A stretch of DNA of 64,000 bases from Effrenium voratum (lineage: Eukaryota > Sar > Dinophyceae > Suessiales > Symbiodiniaceae). A program made the translations under genes and the position numbers. Below, one piece after another: positions 30,101 to 61,551 of this stretch. The notes beneath the pieces are model-generated. The model was not told the origin of the DNA. It was given only the letters and a program-made list of their open reading frames with translations, and did no database searches. Position 1 is the first letter of the stretch; every line of letters begins with the position of its first letter. The stretch lies in contig CAUJNA010001857.1 of NCBI GenBank assembly GCA_963377175.1, positions 587,795-651,794 on the forward strand, written 5' to 3'.

Positions 30101-33100
30101 GGGCTCCTTTAAAGTCAACCACAGTGGGGGCCTGGGGGATTTGAAGGGCGGAGTCCAGACAGGTGCCGAACCTGGCCCAGTATGAATTGTGGTCGCAAGC
30201 CCCGCTTTTCCCTTGGAAATCCACTGCCCCATGTGTTGTATGCGTCTTAGGGTCATACACCCTCTGGTGGATCTAAACGAACACCGGAATCCCATTTTTG
30301 CCACAAACCCAAAATATACGAACGATAAGACGCATATATTTGCTGGGCCCACCTTACGGAAAAATATAGCAATGGCAAACGAACAGTTTAGATTTGTTTG
30401 GCCTATCCACTCAGGAAGTGAGGTTATGATCATAAGAGAGCCATGTAATGTGTTAGCCTTATATTTCCCTCGCTAGAATCCGGCGGAGACAAAGAGGGCC
30501 GTAGATCTGGCTCAAGCAGTTGGAGGCTTCTTATTCGGGAACCCGGTCCGACTAAAGATGATCTTGCAAAACGATGCCAGAAGAGAAACATGTGATGTGA
30601 AGGCCCTGGATCCGTCTCTTTGGATCCAAAGGGAAGTCTAAAGTTGCAAGGACCTGAAAGTTATTGCTTCTAAACAAAATACTGCTTAAACTGCTGACCT
30701 TGGCAGATAGCACGGTCCTTCAGTCAACTTGAGTTTTTGTTCCAAGCTCAAGACTGCAGCGCCAGGCTACCCAATGAATGGATCTGCGAAGTTCTTTGCT
30801 ATCAGGGGCTTGCAAAACCGAATTTATCCAAATCAAAAGTTGATCAACTTGCTCGTGGCTTCAATGAACTGCCTCCTTTGGATGTCCACCAAAAACGGAA
30901 TTGAGGAACCCCGCACACTGAACGTGTACTCAGATTGGTGGTTGGCGTTCCCCGGTTCAAGAACATGCTTCAGGTGGGATATGGAGGTGCGGACTCTTTT
31001 GGTACCCTCTTGTGGCGGGTGTGCCCCTACTGCGGCTGGGGTTGGTACTATCTTACATTGCCCGTCTCAATGAAGATGGTGGCATAAGAGAGTTGATAGT
31101 TAACACATGTTAATACCTATGTTTAGGGCCAAATGTTGACCAAGAAGGCCCCCTGTGCCTGGAAAGAAATGCGATCGGCTTGTCTCAAAAACCGAATGGG
31201 GCCCGGAATGGTTGGTGCTCTTTTAATTCATTTCCCTGTAGGGGTCCCTCAGAAAAGATCCCCTGACCGCACCAATCTCTTGGCCAACTTACCATGCCAA
31301 GACCGGACACTTGTGCCCAGGATTACATCTCTCAGGTTGAAACATCAATTCCTCCACAAAGGCTTAAACGCAAGGGCTTGGGGCCTGGGGTTAATATTTA
31401 AGGATTCCCAGTTGTTTGGGCGCAGAAATCCTCCTTTTCCTTCCCAGACCTTTGGACCTTTGGACCCCAATCCCATTGCCAGACTTAGCTGAGTCGACGT
31501 TTGGTCCCGTCTTGTATCTTTGCCCTTTGAAGCCTGCTGGAAGTCAAGATATAAATCCTAGGTTGCAGGCTGAACGTTGGCCAAGTGAGCCACAATCAAA
31601 GCCTGGGCAGATGAAGAGCAAGGCCCAGCCCCAGCCATAAAGAGTTGCGGCCGCCCTTTGGTTCTTTACTTTATTGTAGGGTACGTAGGGCATTTGAATA
31701 CCAGGTTTGGATTGTGGCTCAGCCCACGTTTCTTCCGGAGGCCATCTTCCGAGCCACGATGCCTTGTGTCAGCTGCGTTTCGAAGCGCAGGCTCCGGCGT
31801 GATCTCGTGGTGGTGGCCACCATCAACAAGGCGCTCGAACGCAAAGGAGCCCAAGTAGACCAGCTGTGAGCAGCTCTAAAATCCCCCCTTTACATCCCGA
31901 GCAAGCGTGGTGTCATAACAAGGCCACGAGTAAGTAAAGCCCTGCACGGCGTAAGCCAGCGTAAGCCGGCGTAAGCACCTTTTGGGGAAACATGCTGGGT
32001 AAGCGCCCTTGTAGGCTTTTTTCGGTAAGCTTTGTAAGCATGCTCGGAAGAGTTGTTTCACACATATTAACCAGGCTCCCGCCTGCTGCCGCCGACCCTC
32101 GGCGCATTAAGGGAAAAGTCACAAGGACCGGTCCTGAAACACGTCCGCAAACCCAGGGACCACTTATAAGATCCTCTACGACCACAAACAAGGATTAACG
32201 GAAAAGTCAGAAATAGGGCAGCTAGTCCGTTAATTACCGCTTGGGCCGGCTTGCGCCCAAGTCACTTCGAGTTGGCCCGGGAGCAGTCGCCTCTCCCGGG
32301 GTCGCCCTGAAACTGGCCCTCCCGAAGTTGACCAGAAACAAGGATTAACGGAAAAGTCAGAAATAGGGCAGCTAGTCCGTTAATTACCGCTTGGGCCGGC
32401 TTGCGCCCAAGTCACTTCGAGTTGGCCGGGAGCAGTCGCCTCTCCCGGGGTCGCCCTGAAACTGGCCCTCCCGAAGTTGCCCTGGACCGGTCGCCGGCAG
32501 GGACCGGGACTTGGGACCCTGTCCAGGCTGGTCCCAGTCTGGCGCGGTTTGACTTGACGTATTGGACTCTCTTGCAGAATAGATGGGATCCTCTACTACC
32601 ACAAGGACGTCAACAACCGCACGGGCCGGCTTGGTCGCAGGGTCATGGGTGCCAGTCCGGAAAGGTGTCTGGAGCGGTTTGAGGCAGCACAGCATATTGA
32701 ATTGGGACCCAAGACCAGCGGTCACACCAGGACTCGATCCCGGACCGGTCCCAGGACTGGTCCTGGGACCGGTCCCAGGACCAGTCCCAGGACCGGTCCT
32801 GGGACCAGTCCCACGACCAAACCGCTGCCCAGGACTGGTCCCAGGACTGGTCCTGGCACCAGTCCCAGGACCAAACCCGGGTCCTGGGACTGGTCCTGGG
32901 ACCAGTCCCAGGACCAGTCCCAGGACTGGTCCCAGGACCGGTCCTGGGACTGGTCCCGGGACCGGTCCTGGGACCGGTCCCAGGACTGGTTTTGGCTGAC
33001 TACGTAATCCAAAACAGCAGAACCAGGGTCCCAGGACCAGTCCCAGGACTGGTCCCAGGACTGGTCCCAGGACTGGTCCCAGGACCGGTCCCGGGACCGG

Positions 33101-36100
33101 TCCCGGGACCGGTCCTGGGAATCCACTTTTTGTGGGTTCGGGCGTGTCCCCCAGGGACTATCATTGATTCCAATCACTTCCAGTTGCATCCCACGCCGGT
33201 CCCCTCTGCAGGAGGCTGGAACGGGAGGCAGAGGGTCGGCGGATTATGTGAAACGCGTTGTTATTGCTGGCTTGTGCTGTTTTGACCTAGTCGAGCTTGG
33301 CAACTTGCCCGGAGACTTTGGCTGCGCAGGAAGACGTCCAAGACCGCATGTGCGCACGACTAGAAAACAAAACCAGCAGAACTTGGATTGGCTCATGCCA
33401 GGTGCTGTTGAAATCTGTACTAGGTAGGACAAACAAAGGCTTCTGACTGAATCCGCGGATTTAAACTAAAGAGGCTAGGGCGGGCAAGCTCGCGTAAGCA
33501 GGCGCGTTTCGCGTAAGCTCGCCTGGCTCGGCTGCCCGCTAGCCCTTGCCATAGACGCCGCCGTTTCTTGACCTGCAGTAATTAAGAACAACAACGCCAA
33601 GCCGCTGAAACTCGTGAGGGTAGTGCTTTGTCATCTTCTTCCTAGGAGTCATCCACGTCATCTTGAGCAGTTCTGGCGACCGTGTGAAAAGGACTTCGTG
33701 TAAGCAATTCTTGAGGGGAAACGCCCAAAACACCGACGCGTAAGCGCGCAAGCTTAACATGCTCGCTGACTGCCGCATAAGCTAAAACATGACAAAGCGC
33801 AAGCTCGCACGTAAGCAACCTGATACTTTGGGATTCATGGGATGTTTATAGAGGCGCTCAGCTGGGTGTGCCTTATCATTGGAGATAAGTTGTTGGTTCC
33901 TTGTGATTTCCACTCCCACATTTGCGGGAGGCCATTCTTGGTTGGTTTCCAAGGGGCCTTAGTTGCGTTTGCATGCGCTGGCAACTACGCAGTTCGGCAA
34001 GGAATTCCACATATCGCTGCGGCAGCTCAAATCATGATGCAGCTTGGGTTTCGTCTGGTCACTGAGGCCATTTCATTCCGTTCCTTCCTTTCCATTCCCA
34101 GCTCATTTCATATCATGTCATGTGCATCATTTCATGCAAGCTCATGTTGAATCTATGCCGTGTTTTTGCTGTTGCTTATGTCCTGTACATGTTCATGCTC
34201 ACATGGCCTAAAGTGCAGCTTTAAGCGAGCCAGAAGTGATCAATGATTTATGGAGGGAGGAGGTTCAAAGCTTTGCTGTTGCTTGTCCTCGTTAATTTCC
34301 TTGAACAGGCGAAAAGAGTGCCGAGCCTGCCGAGAACAACACGCAGCCACACAACCATTGGTTGCCAAGAGTTGGCACTTGCGCGTGATGAAGCTTCCCT
34401 TTCTTGGAAGGGAAGTGTATTGTTGGTTTGGCTTGGATGGTTGGCTTGGCTAAAGCTCCAAAGCTTCCTGGGGGCTTCTCCTGCCTTGGGCATCCAAATG
34501 ACAAGTTGGCCTAAGATGATTTCCGACACTTTTTTTGCATGTTTATTGGTTGCTGAGTTTCCGGGCTCTGTTCGTGTTTAGATGGGGGCTGCAAGAAACA
34601 ATGGCCCTGTTTACAGAGGTGAGGCGTCCTTTATTTGGTTTTTGAGCCACATCCCCTCACTTCGGCAGTTTCTAAAGTGTGTTTGTGTTTTTCAGGCAGA
34701 TCAGTTTGGCAGCACCCCTCAATCAAAATCAACTGGGAGTTTCTCCATGGCTCTCATCCTGGAGCGCTTCCCATCTTTTTGGGTAGAGCAATGTTTAGGT
34801 GTGGGTTCTAGAGGTATGGAAGTTATATGAGCAAAGGTCAATATGAACCGTCGTTGTCTGTAGTAACGGGAGTGTCATTGGGCACACTCACCAAACTGCC
34901 ATTAGGGCATAGGGTTACTCACCAAACTCCCCATGTCAGTTGGGAACACAACAAGTACTGACCGTGGCTCCTAACTTCAGTCGTTTCAGAACTGACTTGA
35001 ATCATTGAGGTTTACGCCCAACCCAAGTCACCAGGAAAAATTGGGCTATCCTTATGGCCATCCACTCAATGAGTAATTGGCGCCTGGGCCTGGACTGTGA
35101 GGCTCCCCTGCACCTTTTGAAGCATCGCCAGGTGTGGGCGTACGGATTCAAGACGTTGAGCCTTTTGGACTCCATCGAGACCAGCAGCAACCCCAAGGGC
35201 CTGGGCCCCAGAGACGAAAACCCTCTGGGCTTTTCACAGTCCATGTTTGGCTTCTAATGTTGACCCGGGTCAATCAACTCATCCAAGCAACAAGGGGGTG
35301 TTCCCTCCAAAAGCAAAGAACAAACCCTAAAGCCAGGAGTGTATTCATTTGGGGATCCCCATGAGGTGGACTCAATCCCAGTGACTCATTACCCGCGGTT
35401 CTTCTGTGCAAAATAGTTGAACCCCTGCACTAGGTGTGTGCATATGACTCGAGCCAAGACCCCGAGCAAGCGACCAGCTTCTTATGGGCTCCCGTATCTA
35501 AGGATGGAGGCCCAGCGGGCTTCTTCGGCTCCCAACACAAAGATGAGACGTGACAATGTGCTCGTTCCAAGCTCCGTCACCACGGCACGCACTAACCCTG
35601 AGCGTGTCCATCGCGCCATGGGTGGATCGCATGTACCATGTATGGTACGCGGCAAAACCCTCTAGTTGCCTGCACGAGCGGGCAAGGTGCCCAGGAAGCC
35701 AGGAAGGGGGCTGCAACGTAATTAGATTCTATGTTGGTATGTGGAGTCTCCATGACCCTTGACATCAGGGGTATGACCCCTTTCTTTTGGGCAATGGCAA
35801 TGACCCCATTTTTGAGGGCCATGGAGATTCCAGGTATGAGTTTTAATAGGGGACCTCAGAGGGTGGACATCAGAGTTCGGTTGAGTTCCAACTCTTAAAA
35901 TTCATGGCAATGCGTCTGTGTCCACCACACCGAGGAGTGGCTAATGGGGTTCAGCCCATGAAGCCCAGGCTTGTGCTGCCTCTCCGCTGGAGAGAGGGTG
36001 GTACTTTGCTGCCCTGGCATGCAGCAGGCGAGCGATTGGGAGGGAGCATGGCGAGCCAAACCCAGACCTCCAGTGCCCTGTTGCCCTGTTGCCCTGTTGC

Positions 36101-42100: not shown

Positions 42101-45100
42101 AGGGGTTTCCCAATTTCAAAACAAACCCCATATGTGAACAGTGACCGGTGTCCCCTGCCTCAAGGTGAACAAAAACACCAAAGGCTCGCCCATTAAAATT
42201 CACACCCTATTAGCCCCGGATTCATAAACCCGGATCTGATTTCAAACCTGTCAGCCAGGGGGAGTTTTTGGGCTGGGTGACATTCCTTTGCAGAACTTGG
42301 ACTTCCCGGGATAAGATTGAAACGTGGCACACGGGTTCACCGCATTTCCTCTACCAGAAACCCCGGTGTTAAGCATTGGAATCAACTGCTTTGATCCAGA
42401 CACGTAGGGTGGCCTTGCACCTTTTTCAACTTTTTTTGAAGGGGGGTTCCCCCAAACATGTCAAGTGATTACCTTAGTGGTGTGTTAAGTGCGCTGCCTT
42501 TTTTGTTCTCTTCATGCGGGTCTGTCAAACCAGAGTGGTTTCCCTCCGGGTTCCCCTTGAAACACACCCAATAAGGGTACCACCTCCGAACAAGACGCAA
42601 ATTGCGCTCAAGCGAGTGACGTCAGAACTCGCTGCCCGGAACCTGGGACTTCAGACGGTCGGATGGGAGCGCGGAATTCGAGCCAACGACTCGTCCGAGT
42701 CGCGTGGGTGTCTGCGTGGGTTTCGGTAGAATGTCCCTGTGGAACCACTTCAACGTTTGTTTCTGGCGTCTCCTCCAAACATATTTTATATTTTAGGGTG
42801 GGTTATATGGACAAGAGTCAGAACATCTATGTTTAGAGAGCCTCAGTTCGGCCAAGCTTTGGGCAGACAAATACGAACTTCCCTGGTGAGTTGCAACGAA
42901 TTTGCGTGCAGCGGCCCGCAATGGGCTGAGAGGCGAGTTCCTGGCCGCCTCCTCGGATAAGGGCACGGTGCACATCTTCGCCATCCAGCGGCCAGGCGCC
43001 CGCCGCGCGGCTGGATCCCGATAAACCACGGCTGGATCCCGAGTGAACATTTTGAGAGGTTCTCAAGTCACTGTGGTTTCCCAAACAAAAAACATGTTTG
43101 AGGGTAGGATGCCACTTTAATGGACGTTGGGGTGCTCTCAAAATCACTTTACGGGACCGATTCCTATTTGAGAAACACGCGGGGTGTTCCACTTAGCGAA
43201 TCCTTCACGGTTGGTGGAACACCCCCCCTACCAGATTGCTGAATCCGGGGTGAATGTACAACGTTTTGGGGGCCTTCAAGTTGGGATTCCCCAAAAAGCA
43301 GATTCTTTTGGGGATTCCTTAGGTTGCAGGGAGGGAAGGTGGGAGGGTTTCAACACTTCTGTCGCGCTTGCCTGGGGGTCAAGCCCACCCCGCCATGTGC
43401 GCCATTTGGAGGTCATGAACTTTTTAGGCGTGACTGACCCACATTGGGAGTTTTGACCACGGCAGGTGAGCCACAATCAAAACCCAGGTAGTTAACGGTT
43501 CGTTATGGATCATTCCAACCGTAAATAGTTGCGGCCGCCTTTTCATGCTTTACGTTGAATTCATTTGGACATTTTGTGCCAGGCATTGATTGCGACGTGG
43601 GTGTGTCCATATTTGTTTTGATTATTTAAACCCGTGTTTATTTAAGTTGAGGACCTCACGGGGTCTAGCGTTTCGCCAATAAGGGCATGGAAAGTACGCG
43701 CGTGGAAAGATTGAATTATCCCATTGTGGTTGACAGAACGGCTGTCTCCAAGTCCCCTCGCAAGGAATCCATTGGCATGTGCCAACATGTTGGATCCAGT
43801 TGTTTTATGTAAACCATGATCAATGAAGCCACAAAAGGGGGGTCGTCAATCTCCTAATTTTAGTGGTATCGTGGTTTCTGGCTTAATCAGGGAAACCAGA
43901 CACCAAAGGACCCCAAAGTGGCCGTTCAAGGTGGCGCATCTCTTTGTCAAGCTGGGAAGAGGCGCCGCAGTCCCAAGTTGGACCCCATTTCTTTTTGAAC
44001 AACCCCCAAATCATGCATCAAAACTCAAACGAGGCTCTTCAATTGATATTGGAACCGATCTCCCTTACCGGCAGACACTAACCGGGGTTGATGTTCAAAA
44101 AAATCCAGCCCAAGAAATGAGGCCCCAAAAACTTGCCTCCAAGATTCCTGAACGAGGTGAGCCACAAGGAGCTGGGCTGCCGCTTCTCGTGCTTCCTTAC
44201 CAACATCGTCACTCACCGTTCAAACTGCGCATCATCGCAATGGGTGCTCTCGCCAGGCGGGGGATACGACGCCTCCAACTCCAAGTCCAGCCTCCAGAGA
44301 TTGCCCGGGGCCCAACAACTCGACTCGCTCTCTCGCGAGCGAGCACCCAAGGTGATACGCAAGGTCTGGCGTCTTGGAATATGTTTGCAACTTTTGACAT
44401 AGTTAAAGGCATAAAGCCTCTGCAGCAGGCCAAAAGGAAACCGCCAGTGTTGGACGTGTCATATTCAGATGTAGTATGTGAGAACCCCAAAGGGAGACTC
44501 TTTTATGGGTGTGGTTTCTTGTGGTTTCTTCATGCATTGGTCTAGCAGCTGGTCAAGGGTTTGTTAATGTTGAAACGCATGTGGAAACATGAACTGTGTT
44601 TGAAATGCTTGATCATAATGGCATGTGCCATTTTGGCTCAAGCTTTGCTCTGGGTTCCTAGAACCCAATTTGTGTGAAAAAAAATGTGTTTGGACACTTT
44701 CGAACTAACCCCGATCAAGCAATGGCTTCCTCGGCAACCTCGGCCACCTCCTTTGAGCTGATTGAGGACCAGACGCTCACCGTGGAGGAGGTTGAAATGG
44801 CCAGCCAGGAGGCCCAGGAAATTCGCACACGCGAGGCGGCAGTGGCGGCCGGCCTGGTTTTGGACGAGCCCGAGGCCCCCCCGTCGGCTTCGGCTACCGA
44901 CGTGATGAAGGACCTCTCCAGTGCACTGGAGCGTCTCCGTGTGGCGTTTGCCACACCGACTTCCGGCTTGGGTGCCCCTGGCCCCGCCGAGGAGGAGGAC
45001 AAGGACATGGAAGATGCGGACGTCACGGAGCGGGCCACTCCACCGGAGGAGGCACAGACACCACCCACGAAGAGGCTGAGGGGTTTCGTGGCGGCTTCCC

Positions 45101-48100
45101 AGAAGACCACGGCTCATGTGAACAAACCGGTCTCCTTGGTGCCGGTTGAGGGCCGACCCGGTTACTTCAAGCTGGTGGACCTCCCAGACCTCTTCCCGGT
45201 CCTTCCGGCATCGGCGGCCACTTTGCTGAGGGACGTCACGGTGGAGGAGGCGGTCTCCCTGTTCCACAAGTTTGTCGGGAAGAATCTCACGGAGGACCTG
45301 GTGATTCGTATCCTGGAGGCCTATGTCCCGATGAAGATCCAGATCCGGCAGGAGGAGGTCTGGGCCTCGCAGTTCCAGCGGAACAAGGCGTGCATTGGCA
45401 CCCAGCAAATGCACAGGCTCGATGCAGGCCATTCCGATTACAAGTTCATGTGCAAGGCATGCGGCACGGGGTGGCCAGAGGCAGCCAAGCAGTGCTGGGT
45501 CTGCCCAGGCAAGGAGTTCGTCCCCTTCCAGGCACCCTCGGCCACCTATGAGGCGGACGGCATCACCTACAACCTGCTCATCGTGGAGGGCAAGCCGACC
45601 TGGATCCAACAGCGGGAAGGGGGAAGCCTGGGTGCCGCTGGCCCCGGTGGTACCCGGGCACAGGCAGACCGCAACCTGGTGGACGGCACGGTGCTGGGGA
45701 GAGCTCCTCCGAAAACGGACACGGCAGAGGAGATCACCATGGCAGACGTGGTCCCGCTCAACGCGGGCCGGAAGTACATCAACAAGCACTTCCCCAAGGA
45801 GACGAAGCATGTGTTTTGGGCCTCCGTGGAGTGTGGCTTGGTCTTGCCCAGCATCAGCGCCTGGGAGTGGGCAAGAAGAAGTTCAAGACCACCGGGGGCT
45901 ATATGTGCAGATTTTGCAAGGGCTTCTGGAGGGCGAGCCGCGGGGGGGACCAGGCTGCTCCAGATCACGGGGTGGCACAAAGACAAGGCCACATGCTTGC
46001 AGCTGGTGATGGACGAGCCCCCGGAGCAGCTATATAATCAGTGGATCCGTGACAGGATGGAGTTCTACAAGAGGGTGGAGCCGACGGAGCCTCCCAGGGA
46101 CGAGCGGCTAGTCCTGGGCGACGCGAGCACCCCCCGCATGCGCTTCAGCTCCTCGAATGGCCTGGGGGATGTCTCCACTGCCTTGTGGTCGGTCATTTTG
46201 AGCAACCCGGAGAAGTCGGGGCTGGCGGCCATCCACTCGGTGGCAAAGGAGGCGATCTTGAAGGGTGAGAGCCGCTAGGTCGTGTCTCACAGCTCTTTTG
46301 GATGTGGAGTCGTGTGATCTCTTCCCGCCGGGACTTGGGTGCCTTTGGCCCCGTCTCGGGTGGGGGGAGGAGTAAGGGTGTCTTCTTTTGGGTTCTTCTT
46401 TCACCATTGTTTCCCCCCTGTTCAACACGTCACGACAGCCGGATTGCCTCGATCTGGAGGCCACATGCATTGGCTGCCCCAAGGACAGTGGCTGCGGCTG
46501 ACTCTTGGTTTCCTTGAGGTCCCCTTGGGGTTTTTGGGGAATCCCCCGCCTGGTTGGTCTCCCCCCTCCGTGCTTTTGGGGATTTCCGGGGGTTGACTTT
46601 TGGTCCTGTCGGGCTGCGTGTGGCCTGCCTGCTCCATCTGCACTCGGCATTCTGCGCGTTTGGAACATGCATGCATTGTGTCGCGGTTGGGTCCCGGCCG
46701 TTCGATAGGAGGCTCGAACCCCCCTTTTCCTCATGGCTAGGGTTTCTACAAAGTTTCTTTTGCGCCCGCCTTACACACGTCTTTGGGACCGCATTCCAAG
46801 GGTCCTATGGGACACATTGGCGGATGAGTCCTTCTCCCCGAGACAGACGGACGGGGCTGTTGGTCCTGATGTGCCTGCGCCATGGCACGGAGGAGGAGGG
46901 GAGGAAGCTGGGCGGGGAGCCGGCAGTCCGCTTCGCCCAGCTCCTGGAACTCTCGGGTATTCCGGTAGGGCAAGACGACCAAGTGGTCCCGACGGACTAC
47001 TTCAACGGCCTGGTGGCGTCGGCGGCGGGCAGGCTTCCCCAGCCTCTGTCCGCGGCGGACCTGGCCGACCTATGGGATAGCCTATGGTTCCTCCTCATGG
47101 CGACTGCGGATGGCAAGCCGAGCGAGAACTTTTCCCCGCCAGGACCAACTGAGGTGGTTCTCACGAGATGACCCACCCCCACTCCAACAACCGGAGCTTC
47201 TGAAGTGGAGGCACTGGCGGCCGGGGAAAATCAGGGAAATGGAGCCCACGACCCAGCGAGCGCTGGAACTCCATATGCGCGGGAAATGGGCGGAACGGCT
47301 CCTTGCCCACTTCGCCCCTTTTGCGGAGCACATCGCATACATGCAGGACATCCTGGGGGAGGACTTCCGCAAGGAGGCATTGGACCTCTTGGGGGACAGT
47401 AGGTTCCGGACACTCAGGCAACATTGCCTGGTCTACGAGAGTCTCCGGAAGAGAGGCTTCACAGTGATTCCATGGCAGGAACGACATGTCCGCTCTCTCC
47501 TTAACCAGCTCGCCGAAGAGGAGGTCACCCCGTGCAAGTTACGGCAGGTGTGGAACACCCTCAAGTGGTTTTCCAAGACCTTCGGGTTGCTGAAGATAGA
47601 CGAGCTCCATCGCCTCAAGTCCAAGAAGAGCTCATTGGAAGAGGCGCTCACGGACACGGTCACCAGGCCACAGCGCAAGGCGGTGGTCCCCAGCAAAGAG
47701 GTCATATGGGCTCTGGAGGAGGGGGCCGGCTACGATCGCCTGGGTGCCACCGGCCCCGGTACGCAGGAGGCCCCGGGGAGGAGCAGACACGAGGTGCTGG
47801 ACGCTTTCATCCTGGGTTTCGCCCGGTTCCAGGTTGGGTGCAGCGCTCGTTTCAATGACCTCCAGCATGTTCACCCCAAGGACCTTATCCACACCAGCAA
47901 CACTGTGGAGCTGAAGGCCTGGCAGACCAAGACGGTCTCAGCAGCACGAATCAACCGCAACCCGGTCCCCTTGATTGCTCCGAAGTACAGCTTCACGGGG
48001 ATCCCCTGGTGGACTACCTGGGTGGCCTCGGTCAGGCGACTGGTATCCGAGGAGGCATTCCAGGACATGGACTACTTGCTCCCGACGGTGAGCAAAGACT

Positions 48101-51100
48101 TTGCAGGGCTGATCCCGAGACCTTCCACACCGGAAAGGGCTCTGAGATGGCTCAAGGATGCTATTCTCCGTCGGGGAGTTACCCCGGGGTTGGTGAAGCC
48201 GCTGACGTGGCACTCATTCCGAGTGTTCATCCCGGACTGCGCTTTCCAGATGGGGATCCCCCGGGAGCGCCGCATGTACCTAGGCAACTGGCTCACGGAG
48301 AGCACAGCAGACGTCTACGTGCGGGAGAAGCGCAACGTGGTTGTGGAGATTTGGGGCCAGGTAGCGCAGAAGGTCCCCAACCTGAACCTCGGGCCAGGCA
48401 GGGAACGCAGGGAGGACTTGAACCACCCGGACTGGGCGGACCCGCTCCCGCCACCAGCAGTGGACATCACGGACGCAGGACCGGACGGCCGCAAGGACCA
48501 AGGCATCCCCCACGGTACCCTCAGGGAGCGCGCCATCGACTCGCTCATGGTCATTGGTGGAACAGGGACCCGAGGACACACCAGTGAAGGTCAAGGACCT
48601 GTTTCCCGCCACCCCGGACCTCCACCTTCGTGTGGTGGCGGCGGTCAAACGCACAGGCAACGCCGGCCAGTCCAGAATCCACCTGCTGAATGTCGAAGGC
48701 ACGGCTGTGGGGTGCGGGTGGCGACCGGCGGCTTCTAAGATCCAGGAGCTCTCTGTGCTGGATTACATGACGGAGCAGGAGGCCTATGGCAAGTGCGAAC
48801 GTTGCTTCAAGAGGTATGGCTTCCCGGCGGACTGGGCACTGGAGCCTGCGGAGGTCCCCACACTGCAGGAGGACTCGGACTCCTCGGCGGACTCGGGCTC
48901 TGAAACGGATGACTCTGTAGACACCCAGTCGGAGACCGAGGTGGTGGCCCTACCTTTGGCAGCCTAGGTGCCCCCGGCCCTGGCGACCGAGGGGAGGGGA
49001 GGCCCGATCCTTCGGAAATGGCGGGTGTGCCAGACTGTCCTTCGGAAATGGCGCTATCAGTCTGCACACCCGTTCTTCAGTTTTTGAGAGTTTGAGGTGG
49101 GTGGCCCATGGGGCCCACCCAGCCGTTGACATCTGACAGGGGAAGATGAGTCCCTGGCACCAACACACTTTGTTAATGTTGAAACGCATGTGGAAACATG
49201 AACTGTGTTTGAAATGCTTGACCATAATGGCATGTGCCATTTTGGCTCAAGCTTTGCCCTGGGTTCCTAGAACCCAATTTGTGTGAAAAACCCACCCACC
49301 CACACCAAGGTAGGAGGTCATGGCGGCCGCGCCCGCCAAACCACCGGAGGAGGTCCCAGCGGAGTTCAAGGAGGACGTGGCAAAGTTGCAGAAGCCACTG
49401 GCGGCCATCCTGGTGGGCAAGGAAATCCCCTGGGCCATCCAGGCGGCTCTGGGCGCATCGGGATACGTCACGGTGGAAGACCTGGCGGATCGCTGGAACA
49501 CCCCGGCGGCGGCTAGGGACAATGGTCCCCGGGACCTGGGATTCCAGGATGGAGAGAATGGGTTCAACGCCCAGACCTCGGCCTTCACGGCGATGCGCCT
49601 CCTTCAGGCAGTTCGGGTGGCAGCCAACTTGGTCCGGGGGGGCAACCAAGGTGACCACCCGGCGGGCCAGGCGGGCCCGACAAAGGCTCCCTTGGAGGTC
49701 CTGTGTGACAGGCGCCAGCTGGAAGATGCTTACGTGGCCACGCATGGGACCCCGAAGCCGAGGTTGGAGTTCCAAGGTAGTGATGGCTACCTCAAGAAGC
49801 AATGGCGCATGATTGCCAAGGGCGAGCTGGGCTACATCCCGGCAAAACACATCGTGAGCGCGCTCCCGGAAGAAGGGGAACGCCCCTCATCCACCCACAA
49901 GAAGATCACGGTGGACGGCTGGGACAGGGAGGATGAAGAAGAGGTGAGGAGCCACCCTACATCTCGGCGCCAGCTGGAACGATTGCACCTAACCTTCAGG
50001 ACGACGCTCCTGATGTGCACGGCAGCACTGCCACAGTTTGGCAACCTGAGGGTCACCAAGGAGGAGTTGGATGATTGGTATGCCTGGTTCTATGGGGAAG
50101 ACATAGCCGGCAGGAAGCCTCCCCCGAGCGACACCACCTTGCTGTTCGCAGAGCGCAATGCATGGCGCAAGATTCACGAGATGGTGCACCAGGGCACCAC
50201 TCTCTCCGAAGCCCTCTTCTGGCAACGGGAGGTCTATGAGCACCTCGGGCGCCGGAGAAGGGGAAGAGCAAGAGCAAGGCACCCAAGGTGTGGCAGACTC
50301 AGTGGGAGAAGCCCAAGAAGGGGGGAAAAGGGTCCTGGCCCTCGGGGCCGACCCGGTCCAAGCCGAAGGGCAAGGGCGGCAAGGGGAAGTCCCCCAACAC
50401 CCCATCGACCCCATGGCCGGACCACTGGGCTTTCAAGAATCCCAAAGGGGTGGCGTACTGCAGAGATCATCACCTTCACAACAAGTGTTCGGGATCATGC
50501 GGCCGATCCCACAACTGCCCGGTCAGGGGTGTGTGATGCCCCCCCATCGAAGCATGTGCCACAGGCATGCCCACACCTTCCCAAGTGACAGGAGGCCACT
50601 CAGGGTGCCATAGGCCCCGTGGCTTCCTGGTCTCCGTTGGGATCACAGGCCACCAGTGCGAGAGTGCGCACAGCGGGGGAGAGCCAACCCCAGAGCCACA
50701 GCGGAAGGCAGACAGAGCGGGGGAGGCCAGGACGGCCGCAGGTGGGAGGGGATTTCTCCAGGGTGCCACCGGCCCCGGAAGCCCCTCCACCGAAGACGAG
50801 GAGCGGACCCAGCCAGGGCACTCCAGAAGGGCGGAAGCACCCCTTTCCCCCGCACCCACCGAGGCAGTGGGAAGAACCCCCAGAGAGACCCAGAGGTGAG
50901 GATCCGCCCGGCAAGGGGCGTTCCAAGGGCGGGCAGAACCGCCAGGGCAAGCAGCAAGCCCAGGGACAGATGACCGGAGGGTCAGACAAAGGACGGAATC
51001 TCTAGGGGGGGCAAGCCCCACCTTCCCATGGATGCAGGACACCCCGGAGAGGCTCAGACTAAGGTGGACGCCACGTCCGGTGCCGGAGTCGTCAAAGCCG

Positions 51101-54100
51101 TCCCTCATCCTGCTGTACGCTGGGAAGGATGATGCGGGGGCCCTGGATGCTTACCTCCATGCCTACAACCCGGCCTTCTCGGAGTACATTTAAAGAGTGG
51201 AGATCTTGGACAGGACATGCTGGGAGATGAGCCTTACTCTACGATGTGCTCCATGGCCATGGCGGGCAAGGTCGCCTTTGTGGGGCGGCCCCAACTGCAG
51301 GACGTGGAGCATTCTCAGATGGTTCCCCAAACCGGGTGGCCCGCCGCCGGTGAGGGGCAGAGCGGAGCAGACCCTGTGGGGCTTAGAGGACCTGGAGCCC
51401 CGGGACACGGACAACGACAGCGTGCTCATGCTCCGACAGATGTACCTGACCCGCAGGTGGGCTCCTCCTTCTTGGAGCACCCAATGGACCCAATGGAGTG
51501 CAGCAAGAGCCCGAGCGCAGCGATGAGCACCATCTGGGTCACACGGGCCTACATTCAATGGGCGAACGCACTCCACCACTCCCTCATCAAGTTTGACGAG
51601 TGCCGCCTGGGCCAGGTGGTAGTGAAGTCCACGACATTGTCAACGGACCTTCCCCTTCACCATTGGCATGATCTGCGATGCAACCACGGAGCTCACCCCA
51701 GGGGGAAAAGCTCAACTCCAGTGACCTCAGCCGGTATCCAGAGCAGATGATGCAGGGTCTCGCAGCGGCCATCCTTTGCAGAGCGGGACCCGTCCTGGAG
51801 GCACTGAGGCCGGGGGGCATGGTGCCCCAGGCGAACCCAACGACCCCCCGATCCGACAGCTCGGGATCTGGAACAAGGGGTCCCACTCAGGGGCACGGAC
51901 CCACCCCTGGCCTCGCCGGGCATCTGGCCACTCAAGAAGCTCATCCCACGGGCCAGGGTAACTACCCTTCGGCGGATCACTTCAGTGAGCTCATCCGTGG
52001 CACATTCCTGGAGGAGGTCCCCATGGGCATGGTAGAGGGCCCCTTCACCAAGGTGGAGGCAGCATCGCGCTGTGGCTGCGAGATTGAGGACCTTCGTCCC
52101 GGCCCCCTAGCGGGCATCGACGAAGGGGACAAGATCCGCACCATCTACGATGGCTCGGTGGGCGGGGCCAATGACACCATCAGGAACCAGACGGTGGAAA
52201 GGACAACGGCTCCGACGGTGCTGGATGCGGTACAAGCTCTTCATTGGCTACATGCGGCAGCTGCGGAGGGACCTCCCTCTCAGGGTGCCCTGGCCCCGGG
52301 AAGGAGGTCGTCAAACCTCCACCTGGGGGCTGGCTATGGCCGGAGCCGGGCACCAGGTCAAGGCGGACGTCACCAAGGCCCACCGGAGAGTGAAGGTCCT
52401 CAGGAAGGACTGGCGGTTCCAGGTGGCTTCACTGGAGGAAGAATGGTGGGTGAACAAGGTAGGCACATACGGATTGGAACTTCGTCTTTGTGGATGACTT
52501 CCTGTGGCTGCTTCGCAGCGAGGGGGCAGTAAACTTGGCGGTGGCGCTGTTGGCAACACTCCTGGCCTTGGGCACCCCGCTTAGCTGGAAGAAGACACGT
52601 CTGGCGGAGGTCAACACGTGGCTGGGCTTCGTGGTCCACCCGAACATCCCGCAGGTTCTCATGGCCGCCAACAAACACATCCTGGTAATGGAGGTCTTGC
52701 AGACCATGGTGGAAGGGCAGGCGATGCACTCAAAGGACATCGAGAAGGCCCTGGGCCGCATCCAATGGGCAACTGCTGCATGTCCGCTGGCTCAGCCACT
52801 TTGGGCCTGGAAGATGGCCACCACCACGGTGGGGAAACCCCCCAAGGTGGTCAGGATGCTGGCGTTCATGCTGCGGTTCCTCTTCAACACGCCCTTCGTC
52901 CAGTACTCCCCTTACTTGCCGAAGTCCTCTTGGTGGGGTTGCAGCGATGCTAGCGCCTCGGACGAAGGACTGGCATTTGTGGGAGGATGGTGCTCCAACA
53001 AAATGGAGCCGGAAAAGAAGGAGGTGTACTGGTCCACGAGCAGATCCACGTGGAGGAGTATTCAAGAATGGGGATCCCAAGCGGAGGATTGCGGCTTTGG
53101 AAATGCTGGGCACGCTCTTCCTCTGTAACATGATCCTCACGCACCAGGGCCCTCTGTCCTCCCGGGTCCGACTCCCGGTGGGCAGTGACAATCAGGGCAA
53201 CGTCATGGCGATGCTCAACCTTGGATCCAAGAAGCCCTACACCGCGGCGATCCTGATGGAGCTGGTCTTCCTGCTCCACACCCATGGCTGCTCGCTGGCG
53301 GCCAACCACGTGCCCCGGGAATTCAACCAGTGGGCTGATGAGCTGACGCACCCAGATTTCTCTGGGTTCGACCCTTTGCACAGGGTCCCCAAACAGGAAC
53401 TCTGCGAGGAGTTCGTTTTTCTCCCGCGTCTCCTGAATGGAGATGCATTTGATCTTAGCGTGGGCCCACCCATGCTCCCGTGACCGGAGCCGGTGGGTGA
53501 CTCACTTCCCCTGGTGGCAGACCCCCCTGTGGCCTGGGTGCCCCGGGCCCCGGCTCAGGGGCGGGCGCTATCAGTCTGCACACCCGTTCTTCAGTTTTTG
53601 AGAGTTTGAAGTGGGTGGCCCATGGGGCCCACCCAGCCGTTGACATCTGACAGGGGAAGATGAGTCCCTGGCACCAACACATTGCTCGGATAAAAGAGTT
53701 ATCGCGTGCTTGTGTGGTGCCGTTTGGTTAGCTTGCATACACATGTGCCTAGACGGAACCCACTTGTTCCTTCCAGGTTCAACCAATCCCATGGCCCCAT
53801 ACTGGGTGTCTTCAAATAGGATCATGGCAAACGATCTTTTTTCCTTAATTTTTTGGAGCCACCCCAAAACAGGTAATCTTCAAAAAGAGACACACCCAAT
53901 GAAGACGTTTACCAGATGGTTCAACCCTACACTGAGGTCGCGTGTGCTGCCTGTGCCGCTGACAAGTTTTGGGGTTGCGCCGATTTCACATCAGTCAAGC
54001 AGTTGCCACCAATTCGGGTGTACAAGCACAGTAGCGCAAAATAAAGATTCCTTGCCTGGGAATCAGTGTGGAAAGGTTTCTGAGGGTCCGCAGTCAGATC

Positions 54101-61104: not shown

Positions 61105-61551
61105 GGTGTTTGAGAGGCAACATCCTTGTCGACCCCACCCCACCCGGCATGTCTTGTTGTTAGGTGTTTGAGAGGCAGCATCCTTGTCGACCCCACCCCG
61201 CCCGGCATGTCTTGTTGTTAGGTGTTTGAGAGGCAACATCCTTGTCGACCCCACCCCGCCCGGCATGTCTTGTTGTTAGGTGTTTGAGAGGCAACATCCT
61301 TGTCGACCCCACCCCGCCCGGCATGTCTTGTTGTTAGGTGTTTGAGAGGCAACATCCTTGTCGACCCCACCCCGCCCGGCATGTCTTGCTGTTAGGTGTT
61401 TGAGAGGCAACATCCTTGTCGACCCCACCCCACCCGGCATGTCTTGTTGTTAGGTGTTTGCGAGGCAACATCCTTGTCGACCCCACCCCACGCGGCATGT
61501 CTTGTTGTTAGGTGTTTGAGAGGCAACACCCTTTGCGTGTGTCCTGTTGTT
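61105..61551. repeat. 58-bp tandem repeat, seven full units plus partial
   Basis: Unit starts 61,105, 61,163, 61,221, 61,279, 61,337, 61,395, 61,453 and 61,511. Each has GTGTTTGAGAGGCAACATCC, TTGTCGACCCCACCCC and GGCATGTCTTGTTGTTAG. Units differ by single bases. The 58-bp period rules out a constant reading frame. Confidence 0.97.

Follow-up and report, generated by a model that had tools for sequence, protein, structure and literature searches.

A single tyrosine-recombinase retrotransposon, with its genes in two repeat-bounded blocks of fixed order, is proposed for the dinoflagellate Effrenium voratum

Is an array of retroelement genes in the dinoflagellate Effrenium voratum one mobile element, or two that share their ends? 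The question is raised by a stretch of 64,000 nucleotides (C1857:587795-651794, contig CAUJNA010001857.1; hereafter the window) in which two blocks of genes each begin with the same repeat, A, and end with the same repeat, B. The first block holds an open reading frame (ORF1) and a putative tyrosine recombinase (YR) gene, and the second a Gag-like ORF followed by a reverse transcriptase (RT) and RNase H (RH). The original prediction read the locus as a retroelement of the YR type whose direct repeats are split, with YR in one A...B block and Gag/RT/RH in another, and this part is supported by the analysis below. It then explained the layout by two circles that had recombined, or by two partners that mobilize each other. 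We consider it highly likely instead that the locus derives from a single YR retrotransposon of autonomous type, built on split direct repeats as A1-[ORF1, YR]-B1A2-[Gag, RT, RH]-B2, of which the window carries a degraded copy.

All features of the element lie on the forward strand. The left terminal repeat A1 (122 bp, 44560..44681) and the internal repeat A2 (122 bp, 49169..49290) differ at 2 of 122 bp (98.4% identity), and the internal repeat B1 (49050..49167) differs at 1 of 118 bp (99% identity) from the corresponding part of the right terminal repeat B2 (53564-53681); no further match to A or B was found within the window at E 1e-3. Repeat comparison thus confirmed that A and B bound both blocks and that B1 and A2 stand one base apart here. 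The right-hand B extends 61 bp past 53681, to 53742. A near-identical 61 bp, with single-base variants, lies between the 118-bp part and A2 in 10/10 other copies found in the genome, and the same stretch is present at the 3′ side of B2 in the window and in seven of the eight other copies with a readable right end, the exception being copy C1065 with its degenerate B2. Because this extra stretch recurs in the other copies, B is 179 bp long, B1 abuts A2 directly, and the B1 of the window has lost its last 60 bp. The 117-bp B first described is indeed present twice in the window, but it is only the part that survives in both repeats. That the stretch between B1 and A2 might be a separate spacer is ruled out, since it is the end of B. 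With B2 occupying 53564..53742, the whole element spans 44560..53742; at the other end, A begins at the identical base in all nine other copies retrieved with a left end. A probe for the B1-A2 junction matched the genome end to end only in the window copy, and its 22 other matches were to the B half, each a few tens of bases 5′ of an A. Direct abutment of B1 and A2 is by definition a feature of split-direct-repeat elements.

The gene order in the window is ORF1, YR, B1A2, Gag-like ORF and RT-RH. ORF1 (44722..46278) is an open frame whose ATG lies 40 bp past A1; it is homologous to a 1159-aa ORF1 of a sister family described below and was assigned no function, a search against Pfam having returned no domain and no known domain having been recognized. 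CxxC pairs occur in the sister-copy ORF1. The YR gene (46730..48967) was delineated from its catalytic residues and from homologues aligning in successive frames, with frame changes near 46830-46860, 47138 and 48450-48500. The Gag-like ORF (49320..50588), whose first ATG lies 29 bp past A2, had no Pfam match above cut-off and is named Gag only by its position. The RT and RH region (51133..53483) is broken over several frames. Relative to copy C3237 (11,628 bp), the window copy is missing ~1.5 kb from ORF1, with 6 shared bases at the break, as well as ~600 bp and 78 bp from RT. Given these internal deletions and frameshifts, it looks like a dead, degraded copy.

The RT assignment draws on 105 relatives, among which P0179 reaches the Pfam RVT_1 cut-off (4.3e-7) and P0199 lies narrowly under it; both are homologues of the element RT at ~35% identity, with VDD invariant. 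The RT ORF of C3237 itself had no Pfam match. The adjoining region is presumably RNase H, being recognized only by its motif, so that RT is found together with RNase H as in the DIRS order. For the YR, a 433-aa core contains the catalytic set R236, K263, H357xxR360, W383 and Y392. All of these except the histidine are invariant in two YR alignments (designated A1 and A3, like the repeats in name only); the two arginines, the lysine and the tyrosine are present in all 15 aligned sequences and the histidine in 12/15 (12/13 in alignment A1, 10/13 in alignment A3). An hhalign comparison with a profile built from seven phage integrases gave a weak match (P = 0.0036) in which QTKT, HxxR and the tyrosine were in register. 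The identification as a candidate YR rests on the catalytic residues together with this weak profile match. Both alignments also contain a conserved C-terminal extension past the catalytic domain, with GCGW and CxxCF motifs.

The source genome was searched as 1,155,904,702 bases in 3699 contigs, and 40 places were scored for each of the probes A (714 candidates), B (672), ORF1 (364), Gag (322) and RH (402). The single-block probes (ORF1, Gag and RH) provide a sample that was not selected by the junction, and pairs were counted when two parts lay on the same strand within 13 kb; a YR-B-A-Gag probe favours intact junctions and was not used to test the order. Many single hits stood without a scored neighbour nearby and are uninformative on order. 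Wherever neighbouring parts also scored, the genome matches to A and B displayed the same arrangement, and these genome-wide matches rule out chance repeats. The search with A and B thereby recovered many copies of the family, although two units that appear solitary prove to be deletion derivatives (see below). Seven complete copies have full lengths of 8.9-11.6 kb. The order [ORF1, YR]-B1A2-[Gag, RT...] was found in 10/10 fetched copies, of which C3645 and C3181 are cut short by N runs on the way to the right end, C3176 lacks A1 within the retrieved sequence and C1065 has the degenerate B2. In the scored pairs, ORF1 was 5′ of Gag in 19/19 and 5′ of RH in 16/16, and Gag was 5′ of RH in 16/16. 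An A was scored just upstream of ORF1 at 23 of the 40 ORF1 places, and at 0/23 of these was a B scored ahead of it. Wherever the surroundings could be read, ORF1-YR forms the leftmost block, and Gag-RT follows the internal junction. It was not found, among the copies examined, that most held a single block with all genes. Copy C3645 additionally contains a displaced ORF1-YR fragment inside its RT region, at the place where the window copy is ~600 bp short.

The same layout occurs in a sister family. A YR search revealed many additional YR ORFs, with 60 places scored of 1626 candidates, 58/60 of them stop-free, and two copies (C152 and C280) were read end to end. Both consist of A1, ORF1, YR, B1 directly abutting A2, an ORF in the Gag position, RT-RH and B2, with an A1 of 114-116 bp and a B1 of 159-161 bp. 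ORF1 is a single 1159-aa frame in C280 and broken in C152, and it matches the ORF1 of C3237 at 53% over the last 172 aa and ~33% in the middle. YR is 735 aa without a stop, the Gag-position ORF is broken in C280, and RT-RH extends over several frames in both copies. In sister pairs, YR was 5′ of Gag in 8/8 and 5′ of RT in 4/4 (10 distinct contigs), and Gag was 5′ of RT in 7/7. Any permuted or head-to-tail copy should match, over its full length and hence at the top of the ranking, a probe that fuses the right end of the sister element to its left end. The matches of this probe ended within a few bases of the B end at 40/40 scored places (888 candidates), none entering A-ORF1. The layout, its presence in two families and its fixed order among the examined places are thereby established. 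Over 522 bp, the 40 scored stretches of sister Gag (294 candidates) all show 100% identity, so that the family looks recently active, as after a very recent burst. The sister YRs (L036:5195-7399, L038:5333-7537) read WYSFR against WHSFR in the window family, despite this apparent recent activity.

Relatives were also detected in other species. Those of YR include proteins named from Durusdinium trenchii and Symbiodinium, and those of RT include some from Symbiodinium, Polarella and Cladocopium; ORF1 has 61 homologues, one of them named from Effrenium voratum. These names by themselves point to a dinoflagellate host. Parts of both blocks were joined in 20 of 284 proteins examined, and after removal of opposite-strand pieces the ORF1/YR part came first in 20/20. 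These include P0115 (Durusdinium trenchii) and EukProt P0082 (YR then Gag); several of the rest resemble deletion derivatives in genomic sequence. The block order is thus probably not private to the source genome. Three scans of viral sequence collections gave no relative.

How far does a known plan account for this arrangement? The element could be an ordinary relative of nematode-form PAT elements, its block order changed by a single ancestral rearrangement that has no bearing on mechanism. PAT1 and Kangaroo also have genes on both sides of B1A2 (PMC4157794), whereas here the blocks come in the opposite order and the scanned ORFs yielded no methyltransferase (MT) domain. We regard this explanation as unlikely, while taking it seriously.

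Far less credible is that the locus joins two separate A...B elements, one with YR and one with Gag-RT, that share ends and either fused as circles and inserted in tandem or mobilize each other. A and B do bound each block, and at C147:486950-496500 (L035), which among the scored places is the only group to contain three B repeats, one YR block is followed by two tandem Gag/RT blocks that share the same internal deletion, an array that probably arose by recombination at BA sites. Against this, a B stood just ahead of A in 12/12 Gag blocks with a scored A (12 of the 40 Gag places; at three further places a B was present and no A scored), and no solo block was seen where the surroundings were readable. 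The two apparent single A...B units, C3594 and C326, span from ORF1 into RH with A1 and B2 at their ends; they cross the junction and are internal-deletion derivatives of the whole element. Since the blocks occur together in one order in both families, the two-circle and two-partner explanations of the original prediction were not upheld. We likewise give very little weight to a symmetric circle, in which YR would insert through either of two equivalent BA junctions and both circular permutations should coexist: in a circle, the B2-A1 junction would have the same sequence as the internal B1A2, and two structures with shuffled integrase/Pol order are reported for SymbioDIRS of Symbiodinium (PMC5890265), but permutation was seen in 0/19 pairs and at 0/40 scored sister right ends, and a B stood ahead of 0/23 ORF1 blocks.

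The preferred reading, one element with split direct repeats, can be set against the behaviour of the repeats. A1 and A2 evolve in concert: within copies they differ at 9 positions against 19.2 on shuffling (P = 0.00015; nine copies, with C147, C1065 and C3176 left out). A target-site duplication of at least 3 bp was present in 0/7 copies, the window copy included, and 2-bp matches were present in 2/7. The flanks of the window copy are single-copy, matching only themselves in the genome, where no empty site for it was found. According to the portions of PMC3266345 and PMC5633606 that treat DIRS-type replication, internal repeats restore or join incomplete ends, and YR then inserts the product without duplication. 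That A1 and A2 evolve in concert and that target-site duplications are lacking both accord with this published idea.

How might such an element replicate? The ATGs in the window lie 29-40 bp past an A, so that A may provide both blocks with a common 5′ leader or promoter; we would guess that B is a shared 3′ end and each block an expression cassette. A read-through transcript from A1 to B2 would then act as genomic RNA. Once this had been reverse-transcribed, the internal B1A2 would serve as the template for restoring and joining incomplete ends, as proposed for DIRS-type elements, and YR would insert the joined product. Because all examined copies are opened at one place, YR would have to act on the new B2-A1 junction or on linear ends, and not on the internal B1A2. 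This polarity could come from integration before B1A2 is double-stranded, or from a linear product. Tentatively, and with somewhat more doubt than conviction, we suggest a YR retrotransposon lineage in which split direct repeats are used as two cassettes and integration is polarized, the internal B1A2 serving as template only, without being a site of recombination.

Several observations count against reading the locus as one element with split direct repeats. The extra Gag/RT block of C147, together with C316:15315-15811, where the right end of a sister copy gives way to part of a B and then to an A with no ORF1 behind it, means that recombination at BA sites does occur sometimes. The trend for B1 and B2 is not significant (9 against 12.0 differences, P = 0.09; eight copies, with C147, C1065, C3181 and C3645 left out). 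The histidine of HxxR is replaced by tyrosine in both sister YRs and by proline in P0111, the hhalign probability for the match to phage integrases is only 9%, and searches of YR against Pfam and PDB sequences returned no match. Finally, each of the genome searches scored at most 60 places, while candidates numbered up to 3287.

The constancy of the order deserves attention, since a circle carrying two identical BA junctions would be expected to insert in both orders. This constancy also opens the replication model to counting: a circle intermediate predicts both permutations, and none of the examined copies of the two families is permuted. With the sister family apparently active in the recent past, its circles, cDNA and transcripts may be detectable. 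Outside the element, the window contains a tandem array of a 58-bp unit at 61105-61533 (7.4 copies, 97% matches) and a G+C-rich array of a 12-bp unit (CCAGGACCGGTC, ~32 copies) at 32727-33115, which is probably behind the rise in GC at 32-34 kb.

Where, then, does the element stand among known systems? PAT elements are described with repeats in the order A1-B1-A2-B2; nematode-form PAT1 (Panagrellus redivivus) and Kangaroo (Volvox carteri) have MT on one side of the internal repeats and YR on the other (PMC4157794). The expectation that the genes of PAT and Ngaro elements form one block therefore fails for these two. Like them, the element of E. voratum has the plan A1-[genes]-B1A2-[genes]-B2, with internal repeats parting YR from the RT-bearing part. 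It differs in that PAT1 and Kangaroo are outlined as an RT-MT block, B1A2 and then YR (inverted in Kangaroo), whereas here ORF1-YR comes first and Gag-RT-RH second, an order reversed from theirs in all pairs examined. The split direct repeats of PAT, A1...B1A2...B2, are thus present without its MT domain: no Pfam match to MT or DNMT was found in the ORFs scanned, a search that a very divergent domain would escape.

SymbioDIRS-Dnmt3 of Symbiodinium, in the excerpted account (PMC5890265), resembles the element in being a DIRS-type element of a dinoflagellate with two repeats A and B, a separate YR ORF and an RT too divergent for Pfam. By the figure legend, however, its structure is A-coding region-B-A-B, with two structures that shuffle integrase and Pol, and a Dnmt3 domain lies in Pol, whereas no PF00145 was found here in the RT ORFs scanned. 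Ngaro likewise has split direct repeats and no MT, and its YR has a candidate counterpart here; its genes lie in the first block, as A1-[ORFs]-B1A2B2 in the portion of PMC8547959 that outlines it, with none between A2 and B2, the place that Gag-RT-RH occupies here. With DIRS1 the element shares a YR (a candidate one here) in place of an integrase, the lack of target-site duplication and internal repeats thought to template end joining (in the relevant portions of PMC3266345 and PMC5633606), but DIRS1 has inverted terminal repeats and internal complementary regions instead of split direct repeats. As the YR block comes first and neither MT nor DNMT was found, we would not file the element under PAT proper and would place it within the DIRS order, set apart by these descriptions, as a two-block relative with YR in front. 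The original prediction had known of no described element with this layout; genes flanking B1A2 are in fact known, and what stands is that no report of the exact YR-first, two-block plan was found in the open-access literature. The plan would constitute a new arrangement for YR retrotransposons, a circular permutation of that of nematode PAT elements.

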